The notes under the pieces were generated by a model. It did no database searches, was not told the origin of the DNA, and saw only the letters and a list, made by a program, of their open reading frames with translations. Below are positions 53,320 to 56,582 of a stretch of DNA of 64,000 nt, one piece after another (within the stretch, counting starts at the first letter, position 1; each line of letters begins with the position of its first letter). The translations under genes and the position numbers were made by a program. This stretch comes from Devosia aquimaris. GTDB lineage: Bacteria > Pseudomonadota > Alphaproteobacteria > Rhizobiales > Devosiaceae. Location of the stretch: positions 558,001-622,000 of the forward strand of contig NZ_JAIEZN010000002.1 in the NCBI RefSeq assembly GCF_020169335.1, in the 5' to 3' direction.

Positions 53320-54570
53320 ATGTCTGCCCCTGGAGAAAACCTTCGTATCAACGGTGATCGGCTCTGGGATAGCCTGATGGACATGGCCAAGATTGGCCCC
53401 GGCATCGCCGGGGGCAATAACCGCCAGACGCTGACCGACGAAGATGGCGAAGGCCGTCGCCTGTTCCAGTCCTGGTGCGAGGACGCGGGCCTCACCATGG
53501 CTGTCGACAAGATGGGCACCATGTTCATGACGCGCCCCGGCACCGATCCCGATGCGCTGCCGGTCTATGTCGGCAGCCATCTCGACACCCAGCCCACCGG
53601 CGGCAAATATGACGGCGTGCTGGGCGTGCTGGCCGGGCTCGAACTGGTCCGCTCGATGAACGACCTGGGTATCAAGACCAAACATCCCATCGTTGTCACC
53701 AACTGGGCCAATGAGGAGGGCGCCCGCTTCGCCCCCGCCATGCTAGCCTCGGGCGTCTTTGCCGGCATCCATACCCTCGACTACGCCTATGGCCGCAAGG
53801 ACATGGACGGCAAGACCTATGGCGATGAACTGCAGCGCATCGGCTGGGTCGGCGAGGAGCCGGTGGGCGCGCGCAAGATGCACGCCTATTTCGAATATCA
53901 CATCGAGCAGGGCCCCATTCTCGAAGCCGAGAACAAGCAGATCGGCGTCGTCACCCACGGCCAGGGCCTGTGGTGGCTCGAGTTTACCCTCACCGGCAAG
54001 GAAGCCCATACCGGCTCGACGCCCATGCCCATGCGTGTCAATGCGGGCCTGGCCATGGCGCGCATCATGGAGGCGGTGCAGACCATTGCCATGGCCAATC
54101 AGCCCGGCTCGGTTGCCGGTGTCGGCCAGGTCAAGTTCTCTCCCAATTCGCGCAATGTGCTGCCCGGCACGGTGGTCTTCACGGTCGACCTGCGTTCGCC
54201 CGACCAGGGCAAGCTCGATCGCATGCGGGCCGAAATCGAGGCCAAGGCCGCCGAGATCGCGGCGTCGCTGGGCGTCGGCTGTTCGGTTGAAGCGGTGGGG
54301 CATTTCGATCCCGTGGCCTTTGATCCGACCCTGGTCGCCCGCGTCCGCGCCGCCGCCGAAAAGCTCGGCTACAGCCACATGGACATCATCTCGGGCGCCG
54401 GCCACGACGCCTGCTGGACCAACAAGGTTGCCCCCAGCACCATGGTGATGTGCCCCTGTGTCGGCGGGCTCAGCCACAATGAGGCAGAAGAGATCTCCAA
54501 GGAATGGGCCGCGGCGGGCGCCGATGTGCTGTTCCACGCAGTGGTCGAGACGGCGGAGATCGTTCAGTAA
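53320..54570 (+). CDS. N-carbamoyl-beta-alanine amidohydrolase (M20 family)
   Basis: A 416-residue zinc-dependent amidase of the HyuC/AmaB/beta-ureidopropionase group. Metal ligands are in VGSHLDTQPTGGKYDGVLGV and NWANEEGARFAP. The dimerisation domain includes TGKEAHTGSTPMPMRVNAGL. The C-terminal SGAGHDACWTNKVAPSTMVM has the last metal His. The operon context points to N-carbamoyl-beta-alanine, cleaved to beta-alanine, CO2 and ammonia; N-carbamoyl-L-amino acids are the alternative substrates. Confidence 0.92.
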   Translation: MSAPGENLRINGDRLWDSLMDMAKIGPGIAGGNNRQTLTDEDGEGRRLFQSWCEDAGLTMAVDKMGTMFMTRPGTDPDALPVYVGSHLDTQPTGGKYDGVLGVLAGLELVRSMNDLGIKTKHPIVVTNWANEEGARFAPAMLASGVFAGIHTLDYAYGRKDMDGKTYGDELQRIGWVGEEPVGARKMHAYFEYHIEQGPILEAENKQIGVVTHGQGLWWLEFTLTGKEAHTGSTPMPMRVNAGLAMARIMEAVQTIAMANQPGSVAGVGQVKFSPNSRNVLPGTVVFTVDLRSPDQGKLDRMRAEIEAKAAEIAASLGVGCSVEAVGHFDPVAFDPTLVARVRAAAEKLGYSHMDIISGAGHDACWTNKVAPSTMVMCPCVGGLSHNEAEEISKEWAAAGADVLFHAVVETAEIVQ

Positions 54571-54659
54571 AAATGGCCCAGCTCTCCGCCCCTGCCGACC
54601 TGAACCTTGGCACCATCCCTATGGTGGCTATGGGCCTGGCACGGACGGGCGGGGGTTCC

Positions 54660-54710
54660 CACCTCTCCCTTTGGGGGAGAGGTCGGCCCGCAGGGCCGGG
54701 TGAGGGGGCC
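54660..54710. repeat. left inverted repeat of the DUF559 cassette
   Basis: 51 bp made of two adjacent hairpins: CTCTCCC/GGGAGAG and GGCCC-GCA-GGGCC, ending TGAGGGGGCC. It is the inverted counterpart of 55057-55113: both ends (CACCTCTCCC...GGGGGAGAGGTCGG and CGGGTGAGGGGGCC) match in reverse complement, while the central hairpin differs. It ends two bases before the DUF559 start codon. Confidence 0.85.
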
Positions 54711-54712
54711 TG

Positions 54713-55114
54713 ATGTCCACACTCAAGACCCGCTTTTCCGCCTCTGCCGCAAAACGCCTTCGTGTCGAGATGACCGACGCCGAGAGCAAGCTCTGGTCCG
54801 TGCTCCGCAACCGCCAGTTCCGCGGTCTAAAATTCGTCCGCCAACTACCCATCGGTCCCTATATCGCCGACTTCGCCTGCCGACAGGCCGATCTGGTCGT
54901 CGAGCTGGACGGCGGTCAGCATGATCAGAACCCTGCCGATCATGCCCGGACACAGGTCCTTGCTGCGCATGGCTACGACGTGATCCGTTTCTGGAATCAC
55001 GATGTTCTCTCAAACAGTGACGGCGTGCTCACCACACTGGGTGCGTACATCGATCAGGCCCCCTCACCCGGACGTCGCTTCGCGACGACCGACCTCTCCC
55101 CCAGGGAGAGGTGA
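54713..55114 (+). CDS. DUF559 endonuclease-domain protein
   Basis: A 133-residue DUF559 protein, related to very-short-patch and restriction-like nucleases. KLWSVLRNRQFRGLKFVRQL and GPYIADFACRQADLVVELDG contain a PD-(D/E)XK-like core with Asp60 and Glu64, then GGQHDQNPADHAR; later DVIRFWNHDVL is the family's last strand. The gene interrupts the pyrimidine operon and is bounded by two inverted repeats. The start lies two bases after the left repeat. The last about 18 codons (PSPGRRFATTDLSPRER) are encoded by the right repeat, and the stop is one base beyond it. Confidence 0.85.
   Translation: MSTLKTRFSASAAKRLRVEMTDAESKLWSVLRNRQFRGLKFVRQLPIGPYIADFACRQADLVVELDGGQHDQNPADHARTQVLAAHGYDVIRFWNHDVLSNSDGVLTTLGAYIDQAPSPGRRFATTDLSPRER
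55057..55113. repeat. right inverted repeat of the DUF559 cassette
   Basis: 57 bp in reverse orientation to 54660-54710. It begins GGCCCCCTCACCCG and ends CCTCTCCCCCAGGGAGAGGTG, with a middle hairpin CGTCGC-TTC-GCGACG that is different from the left copy's hairpin but also self-complementary. It overlaps the 3' end of the DUF559 gene and lies 17 bases before the dihydropyrimidinase start. Confidence 0.85.
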
Positions 55115-55130
55115 AGAAAGGAAACCACCC

Positions 55131-56582
55131 ATGAGCAAAGTCATCAAGAACGGCACCATTGTCACGGCCGATCTGACCTACAAGGTCGATGTCAAAATCG
55201 AGGGCGAGACCATCGTCGAGATCGGGCCGAACCTCTCCGCCGACGAGGTGCTGGACGCCACCGGCTGCTACATCATGCCGGGCGGCATTGACCCGCATAC
55301 CCATCTCGAGATGCCCTTCATGGGCACCTATTCCGCCGATGATTTTGAATCGGGCACCCGCGCGGGCCTGGCTGGCGGCACCACCATGGTGGTCGATTTC
55401 TGCCTGCCCAATCCCAACCAGAGCCTGCTCGAGGCCCTGCAGATGTGGGACAACAAGACCGGCAAGGCCTCGGCAGACTATTCCTTCCACATGGCGATCA
55501 CCTGGTGGGGCGAGCAGGTCTGGCGCGAGATGGACGAGGTCGTCAAACGCGGCATCACCAGCTTCAAGCATTTCATGGCCTATAAGGGCAGCCTCATGGT
55601 CAATGACGATGAGATGTTCGCCAGCTTCCAGCGCTGCGCGGAACTCGGCGCCCTGCCGCTCGTCCATGCCGAAAATGGCGATGTCGTCGCCGCCATGACG
55701 GCCAAGCTCCTGGCCGAAGGCAACAACGGCCCCGAGGCCCATGCATATTCGCGGCCCCCGGAAGTGGAGGGCGAAGCCACCAATCGCGCCATCATGATTG
55801 CCGACATGGCCGGCGTGCCGCTCTATGTCGTCCATGTCTCTTCCGAACAGGCGCACGAAGCCATCCGCCGCGCCCGCCAGAAGGGCATGCGCGTCTATGG
55901 CGAGCCGCTGGTGCAGCATCTGACGCTGGACGAAAGCGAATATGCCCATCCCGATTGGGACCATGCCGCCCGCCGCGTCATGTCCCCGCCCTTCCGCAAC
56001 AAGCTGCACCAGGATTCGCTCTGGGCGGGCCTGCAGGCCGGCTCGCTGTCTTGTGTCGCCACCGATCACTGCGCCTTCACCACCGCGCAGAAGCGCAATG
56101 GCATCGGCAATTTCTCCAAGATCCCCAATGGCACCGGCGGCCTCGAAGACCGCCTGCCCGTGCTCTGGACGGCCGGCGTCAATACCGGTCGCCTGACCAT
56201 GAATGAATTCGTGGCCGTCACCTCGACCAATATCGCCAAGATCCTGGGGCTCTATCCCAAAAAGGGTGCGGTGCTGGTCGGCGCCGATGCGGACCTGGTG
56301 GTCTGGGACCCCAAGCGAAGCAAGACCATTTCGGCCGCCAGCCAGCAGTCGTCCATCGACTACAATGTGTTTGAAGGCTTTGAGGTCACGGGCCTCCCGC
56401 GCTTCGTGCTCAGCCGCGGCAAGGTCTCGATTGTCGAAAACGAGATCAAGGCCGAGCCCGGCCATGGCAAGTTTGTCGGCCGCGAGCCAAAGAACCCTGT
56501 GAACCAGGCCCTCAGCCAGTGGAAAGACCTCGTCGCACCGCGCAAGGTGGAGCGTACCGGCATTCCGGCCTCGGGGGTTTGA
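55131..56582 (+). CDS. hydA: dihydropyrimidinase
   Basis: D-hydantoinase/dihydropyrimidinase, 483 residues, opens dihydrouracil or dihydrothymine to the N-carbamoyl amino acid. Binuclear-zinc motifs: GIDPHTHLEMPF, the carboxylated Lys152 in FKHFMAYKGS, LVHAENGD, VVHVSSEQAHE and the Asp of CVATDHCAF. AAAGGAAA precedes ATG 55131; an open frame upstream runs through the repeat and is not part of the protein. It precedes the amidohydrolase in the pathway but follows it in the operon, after the DUF559 insertion. Confidence 0.95.
   Translation: MSKVIKNGTIVTADLTYKVDVKIEGETIVEIGPNLSADEVLDATGCYIMPGGIDPHTHLEMPFMGTYSADDFESGTRAGLAGGTTMVVDFCLPNPNQSLLEALQMWDNKTGKASADYSFHMAITWWGEQVWREMDEVVKRGITSFKHFMAYKGSLMVNDDEMFASFQRCAELGALPLVHAENGDVVAAMTAKLLAEGNNGPEAHAYSRPPEVEGEATNRAIMIADMAGVPLYVVHVSSEQAHEAIRRARQKGMRVYGEPLVQHLTLDESEYAHPDWDHAARRVMSPPFRNKLHQDSLWAGLQAGSLSCVATDHCAFTTAQKRNGIGNFSKIPNGTGGLEDRLPVLWTAGVNTGRLTMNEFVAVTSTNIAKILGLYPKKGAVLVGADADLVVWDPKRSKTISAASQQSSIDYNVFEGFEVTGLPRFVLSRGKVSIVENEIKAEPGHGKFVGREPKNPVNQALSQWKDLVAPRKVERTGIPASGV

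Follow-up and report, generated by a model that had tools for sequence, protein, structure and literature searches.

The window, a 64,000-nucleotide stretch of a Devosia aquimaris contig (NZ_JAIEZN010000002.1, positions 558,001 to 622,000), contains a short gene of the DUF559 family lying between an amidohydrolase-family gene and a dihydropyrimidinase gene (names read from the sequence itself). In window coordinates, the features of the locus are the following:

53320..54570, + strand: amidohydrolase-family gene, upstream border of the insertion site, outside the element and conserved in relatives
54660..54711, + strand: left double-hairpin repeat, its G-rich tail GGTGAGGGGGCC towards the gene (from pairing, folding and a sub-threshold whalefall-1 match)
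54713..55114, + strand: DUF559 gene, 133 aa, predicted EDxHD/Vsr-like nuclease (from PF04480, AlphaFold2 model and fold matches)
55053..55113, - strand: right double-hairpin repeat, inverted, tail towards the gene (from pairing, folding and a sub-threshold whalefall-1 match)
55131..56582, + strand: dihydropyrimidinase gene, downstream border of the insertion site, given as context

The framing of the gene by inverted double-hairpin repeats, described in the earlier note, is confirmed by the coordinates, by the complementarity of the repeat arms and by the family match of the protein: the ATG stands at 54713, after a left repeat that ends at 54711, the TGA (55112-55114) ends one base past the right repeat, and the protein scores 129.7 bits against PF04480 (DUF559; curated cut-off 20.6). 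The repeats are laid out as a first hairpin (CACCTCTCC...GGGAGAGGT), a second hairpin variable in sequence and length, and the tail GGTGAGGGGGCC. Complementarity is 19/19 between the inner arms (54696-54714 and 55053-55071) and 86% between the outer arms (54665-54686 and 55089-55110). The middle hairpins of the left and right repeats are unlike in sequence and length, yet each is self-complementary, as had been claimed, and the two repeats fold as single-stranded DNA with z-scores of -3.19 and -3.83, which 0/200 shuffles equal. In an alignment of 29 related repeats, whose tails are GGTGAGGGG-like and carry no GTAG or CGTC tag, 92.6% of the cells are paired (83.8% after shuffling) and 33 cells changed on both sides keep their pair (10.2 after shuffling), values reached in each case by 0/500 shuffles; neither the pairs with a change on both sides (5 against 3.7, reached by 72/500 shuffles) nor the further pair types (14 against 12.5, reached by 103/500) are in excess.

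The right repeat also encodes the C-terminus of the DUF559 protein, as had been proposed, the encoded tail (DQAPSPGRRFATTDLSPRER) being about 20 residues long, slightly above the 18 originally given. In the AlphaFold2 model of the protein (pLDDT 84.7, pTM 0.75) this tail has low confidence (block means of 55 and 65), as expected for a disordered tail. The model matches the folds of NGO0050 (Z 17.4), of I-Bth0305I, the type member of the EDxHD family (Z 13.1, 93 residues, 2.5 A), and of Vsr (Z 10.7, 98 residues, 2.5 A), and on this basis the protein is predicted to be an EDxHD/Vsr-like nuclease. Mitoribosomal proteins and Holliday junction resolvases were also among the fold matches. Over 73 sequences, D53, D66 and D76 never vary, and E24, E64 and H70 very seldom do.

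Repeat types, copy numbers and sites in Devosia

DUF559 matches occur in 60/75 genomes of the genus, with up to nine per genome and 185 in all (table sum), and 110 of these domains (all down to about 114 bits, plus a sample below) were placed in a tree. Clade A (branch support 100/98, 62 rows) is tightly associated with repeats of the window type, hereafter A-type: one lies at most 200 nt away in 61/62 clade-A rows and in 0/48 other rows, a looser run adding one weak match beside a non-A locus (L097). A reading of the 48 non-A rows as repeat-free proved wrong, since most of them have other repeat families, invisible to the A-type profile. Flank-to-flank repeats of other types were found in 37/46 scorable non-A rows, clade B having, for example, CCTCCCCC...GGGGGAGG..GGTGGGGGT and clade D another two-hairpin type, and several clades with different repeats can share a genome (G006 has A1, A4 and two B rows). 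The distance from the end of the domain to the start of the downstream inverted repeat is 21-22 nt in 31/31 tree rows of subclades A3 and A4.

The window genome (G000) has a single DUF559 match in the profile search, the window gene itself, and many copies of its repeat: 15 BLAST matches at E<=1e-4, both window repeats included, and, with a covariance model scoring at most 80 candidates per genome, 22 matches at E<=0.001. Three inverted, gene-less pairs with tails inward (C1:205365/205406, C1:600564/600615 and C2:267424/267476), about 130 bp long, have the layout of the cassette with a short spacer replacing the gene. The inner ends of most dispersed copies in this genome are TTCAG and those of the DUF559 flanks GCCTGAT; in the genus comparison, TTCAG ends flank some A4 genes.

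Other repeats of the same genome were seen in passing. One A-type repeat (C1:605874-605924) lies amid apparent putA-type coding sequence (named by eye). Two loci (L035 and L038) hold copies of a CGTCATTGCCCGG...CCGGGCAATCCA palindrome resembling the CGTC-type REP, a class reported, in the accessible text of the source, without a dedicated transposase (PMC3733652). Two more (L041 and L044) hold repeats like those flanking a DUF559 gene inserted in cobN in the relative G040, and no such DUF559 gene is present in the window genome.

Copy numbers were compared over the 68/75 genomes that are at least 90% complete, with statistics that ignore kinship and with clade-A presence judged from loci down to about 114 bits, so that a low-scoring clade-A gene may have been missed. 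The median total of dispersed repeats is 25 in the 42 genomes with clade A and 3.5 in the 26 without (p 1.1e-4, kinship ignored). Type-b (A1-type) repeats have a median of 11 in the 24 genomes with A1 and of 1 in the 44 without (p=3.3e-7), a count to which the A1 loci's own flanks contribute a few, and their numbers show no link to A2, A3 or A4. For GGAGAGGTCG-type repeats the difference is weak by A1 (18 vs 5, p 0.013) and A3 (19 vs 5, p 0.012), and not significant by A4 (21 vs 9, p 0.06) or A2 (6 vs 13, p 0.96). Only 4 and 5 phylogenetically independent pairs were usable among the 30 genomes with marker loci. Some genomes are rich in repeats and have no identified clade-A gene (G011 with 106 in two patterns, G049 with 46, G043 with 44, G050 with 32 and G031 with 28).

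The 63 clade-A loci of the site survey (one of them truncated) fall at few places. A1 is found in 23/24 rows at a single site, next to a gene that by eye looks like one for cysteinyl-tRNA synthetase, the site upstream of the amidohydrolase gene holds A2 in 7/7 rows plus five A4, and the window junction is occupied by nine A3 and sixteen A4 rows. We followed this junction in 30 genomes, the window's included: 8 are occupied, 17 have short repeat-free spacers, 3 have other small open frames and 2 retain just a remnant of the right repeat (found by profile in G044 and by eye in G060). Unrelated small ORFs were noted at the junction in G065 (L174), G064 (L187) and G025 (L193), and this point of the operon may be an insertion-tolerant spot. 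The empty site that the earlier note had asked for is present in G040, which is nearest to the window genome in its neighbouring gene (99% identity) and is its sister in the marker tree, where the junction is a 69-nt spacer, against 560 nt in the window genome.

The dispersed repeats also differ in presence between relatives. Five of their sites in the window genome were traced into G040, G050, G034 and G065, and the A-type element is absent from G040 at 5/5: three are short junctions there (site 3 was called empty from two adjoining BLAST matches, with no alignment obtained) and two carry the different, CCTCCCCC repeat family. At an intergenic site that by eye is obgE-proB-like, the pair of the window genome recurs in G065, a pair of another subfamily stands in G034, and the site is empty in G050. 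The gene-less pairs of the window genome are matched end to end, over about 130 bp, in G034 and G065. In G007, neighbours among the pattern matches that lie within less than 150 nt of each other are inverted in 18/18 cases, ten with tails out (52-58 nt between patterns) and eight with tails in (27-31 nt, one 49). The flanks of filled and empty sites are too diverged for an insertion boundary or a target site duplication to be read.

It is this comparison of genomes that suggests mobility. The idea of a mobile or gene-converting cassette in a REP/RAYT-like layout gains support from the empty sites and the clade-specific repeat types, and also from the repeats flanking DUF559 genes elsewhere, the cassettes inside conserved genes and the 0/21 genomes with a Y1 match, all given below, except that the window copy is not recent: 25/63 clade-A loci have DUF559 at this very site, which argues for long residence and rare movement, and the few, long-conserved sites of the clade-A genes in Devosia likewise argue against fast hopping.

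DUF559 loci in other bacteria

The association between DUF559 genes and repeats was then measured without any repeat motif. Loci were gathered by a flank-blind protein model (79 named, 30 from Pseudomonadota, where 129/397 screened genomes match the model, and 90 more), 60 of the further stretches being chosen by protein score down the listing and not at random; with the Devosia loci, the 312 domains minus 15 duplicates gave 297, of which 5 were unscorable. For each of the remaining 292 loci, the 200 nt upstream were scored against the 200 nt downstream in reverse complement, with shifted windows on the same contigs as controls. The median score is 51.5 for the DUF559 loci and 18 for the 897 control windows; at a score of at least 30, inverted flank repeats are found at 212/292 loci against 10/897 control windows, and at a score of at least 40 at 180 loci against 0 controls. 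Positives make up 37/62 of clade A and 37/46 of the other clades in Devosia, and elsewhere 62/75 of the named loci and 19/28, 21/27 and 36/54 of the remaining sets. Among the named positives are metagenome-assembled genomes (MAGs) labelled Dehalococcoidia, Omnitrophota, Rokuibacteriota and one of two Gastranaerophilales, labels open to MAG contamination. The 80/292 loci with no flank-to-flank pair at the threshold include 22 of A1, whose loci mostly have repeats upstream only. By a crude measure of tail direction, the tails of the 212 positives point towards the gene in 136 and away from it in 41, the rest being undecided, and in 123/212 the reading frame enters the downstream repeat by at least 10 codons. 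DUF559 genes are thus neither kept at the window junction free of repeats, nor are the repeats random relative to DUF559 genes, the two outcomes that the earlier note had named as speaking against its proposal.

Whole cassettes (repeat, DUF559, repeat) also lie in frame inside protein genes: a valS-like gene (L211), ispE (L225), an M14 peptidase gene (L277), priA (L229), cobN (L096 and L156, in two genomes), hsdR (L318), hsdM (L314) and the gene of a YkuD protein (L321); the host gene of a further cassette (L304) is probably a DNA methylase gene. Matches to the host protein both before and after the insert were obtained with solved structures for the tRNA synthetase and PriA, as two Pfam stretches apiece for CobN, HsdM and YkuD, and as two Pfam domains for HsdR; IspE is matched before the insert only and the M14 peptidase after it only. 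An assignment of L096 and L156 as helicase fusions was rejected, the Pfam match being CobN. The host in L211, from the Rickettsiales genome AM-377-L16, has an isoleucyl-tRNA synthetase as its best match over the full length; the name valS-like refers to its editing and anticodon parts, for which the matches are valyl-tRNA synthetases. About 0.9 kb beyond the cassette, in frame within this same gene, lies a gene-less pair identical to the cassette end at 37/38 nt, and the relationship between the two is that of an autonomous and a non-autonomous element within a single gene. Gene-less elements with the ends of the gene-bearing element, as expected of MITE-like derivatives, are therefore present in L211, in the window genome and in its relatives.

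The unit as a probable mobile element, and its alternatives

With a probability that we put at about 0.72, the unit is a mobile element with hairpin-repeat ends, one EDxHD/Vsr-like nuclease gene and REPIN-like derivatives. This reading draws on the anatomy of the unit, the clade-specific pairing of gene and repeat, the gene-less pairs, the empty and filled sites, the in-frame cassettes and the predicted nuclease fold, and it is further favoured by the motif-free comparison, the link of type-b repeats to A1 and the lack of a Y1 match in the 21 genomes searched. Weighing against it are the repeat-rich genomes with no identified clade-A gene, the TTCAG inner ends of most dispersed copies in the window genome, the long-conserved sites of the Devosia genes, the 80/292 loci below the threshold and the 41 loci whose tails point away from the gene. 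In the mechanism that we propose, the two inverted hairpin repeats, their G-rich tails directed inward, would be the ends of the element and the DUF559 nuclease its only gene, and the gene-less pairs of about 130 bp would be non-autonomous derivatives, moved in trans and standing to the cassette as REPINs stand to RAYTs. The nuclease would recognise its own repeat family, probably as an extruded or single-stranded hairpin, and cut or nick at the recognised repeat; repair or replication would then bring copies of the pair, and in rare cases of the entire cassette, to new sites, or alternatively a resident repeat would be converted to another subfamily.

A possible account, to be held tentatively and overlapping with the mobile element, is homing or gene conversion, in which breaks would be made in or beside existing repeats and repair would copy subfamilies, and sometimes the gene, between repeat sites, so that sequence spreads among existing sites with no insertion into new ones. 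It would suit the predicted fold, whose closest match after NGO0050 is a homing endonuclease, I-Bth0305I, as well as the different subfamilies at the obgE-proB-like site, the CCTCCCCC family at two sites in G040 and the A3 and A4 genes at the same junction; however, the mid-gene cassettes and the sites that are repeat-free in relatives require insertion into repeat-free DNA.

It is unlikely that the gene is a passenger, that is, that an unrecognised factor moves the repeats and DUF559 was captured and then retained for a different function, for instance Vsr-like mismatch repair. The many repeats persisting in genomes with no identified clade-A gene could be understood in this way, and a DUF559 protein of Caulobacter, VsrA, is linked in the accessible text of its description to a cytosine methylase and the SOS response (PMC12907096), but capture hardly explains why, in distant bacteria, a single gene family should have repeats specific to its clades at a fixed spacing. 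Moreover, the Y1 transposase (PF01797), the transposase family searched, had no match in the 21 genus genomes searched (of 75), the same search being positive in 5/14 control genomes, and on this result a RAYT was rejected as the mobiliser. The strong hairpins with compensatory changes and the sub-threshold match to the candidate noncoding RNA whalefall-1 might suggest terminators or mRNA-stabilising hairpins around an operon gene, a reading made very improbable by the reading frames that run into the downstream repeat, by the repeats in frame inside other genes and by the inverted pairs with no gene between them.

Under the preferred reading of a mobile element, the recurrence of the layout in very different bacteria and in essential genes suggests mobile DNA of a kind not yet described, which would also scatter short copies of its ends that lack the gene. 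A much broader proposition, on which our judgement is evenly balanced, is that all DUF559 proteins are the enzyme of ancient, bacteria-wide hairpin-ended elements in which an EDxHD nuclease replaces the transposase, and that such elements are the source of their hosts' CCCTCTCCC/GGGTGAGGG-type hairpin repeats, perhaps including elements to which no enzyme has yet been assigned, such as the Rickettsia palindromic elements and whalefall-1; within it, ends kept open as a reading frame would make in-frame settling inside essential genes possible.

Hairpin repeats are found in many bacterial genomes, the usual linked enzyme being a RAYT (PMC3116915 and PMC3733652, accessible text). Here a second enzyme family, unrelated to RAYT, is tied to its own repeats in distant bacteria, offering a testable function for a domain of unknown function and a candidate mobiliser for repeats lacking one, and in-frame cassettes such as those in priA and cobN would be a source of new protein inserts.

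Comparison with known systems

VsrA (CCNA_02930) has the same domain as the window protein, and its proposed active site (E73, D102, D115, H119 and D124) has the spacing of E24, D53, D66 and H70 here, with the last aspartate (D76) one residue further; it is a proposed mismatch-repair nuclease, and the accessible text of the paper (PMC12907096) contains the string "palindrom" 0 times and no flanking repeats in its account of VsrA. EDxHD is described as a homing-endonuclease family (PMC6083498, accessible text). Compared with I-Bth0305I and Vsr, the cassette shows no intron, intein or methylase partner, and its ends are multi-copy hairpin repeats. As for other database searches, PADLOC gave only a weak, partial DpdF match (E 5e-4), and a defence system was rejected; NCBIfam gave a single match, below its cut-off. 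The papers covered include none that links DUF559 to such repeats, an earlier description being possible among preprints and most subscription papers, which lay outside this coverage.

Two families of palindromic sequence recall the repeats described here. Rickettsia palindromic elements are, in the accessible text, palindromic inserts of about 150 bp lying in frame in protein genes (PMC10969869), and L211, also from Rickettsiales, resembles them in layout by its in-frame DUF559 cassette and gene-less pair. The Rfam family whalefall-1 (RF01762), described in the accessible text (PMC2864571) as a candidate noncoding RNA known from environmental sequences alone, matches both window repeats over its full length below the gathering score of 37 (18.5 bits at 54659-54707, + strand, and 23.8 bits at 55060-55114, - strand) and shares their architecture of two hairpins followed by a GGGUGAGG tail. 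At the gathering score, whalefall-1 was found at 0/20 other DUF559 loci, and Rfam as a whole gave a tRNA only over 20 DUF559 loci. Whalefall-1, an orphan among RNA families, may itself be a DNA repeat like those flanking DUF559 genes.

The closest parallel is with REP/RAYT. In RAYT systems, the repeat type is specific to the enzyme clade and the enzyme sites are stable. In REPINs, tagged hairpin repeats flank an enzyme gene and gene-less inverted pairs are dispersed as apparent units; RAYTs themselves are single-copy and unable to move themselves (PMC3116915, accessible text), which fits the stable sites of the DUF559 genes. The hairpin repeats around an enzyme gene, the dispersed gene-less inverted pairs, the clade-specific repeat types and the stable gene sites of the present elements correspond to this, the recurrent inverted pairs being those of G007 (18/18) and those of about 130 bp in G034 and G065. 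The differences lie in the enzyme, which is a predicted DUF559 nuclease and not a Y1/HUH transposase, in the tail, which is GGTGAGGG or GTGGGGG-like and not GTAG (the REP tag classes are GTAG and CGTC; PMC3733652, accessible text), in the two hairpins of the A-type repeat, and in the whole cassettes lying in frame within protein genes. The suggestion that a PD-(D/E)XK-type enzyme occupies the place of the RAYT in such a layout is supported by the 0/21 genomes with a Y1 match. The DUF559 element would work like REP/RAYT and is not a member of it, there being no Y1 match in the 21 genomes searched and no GTAG or CGTC tag.
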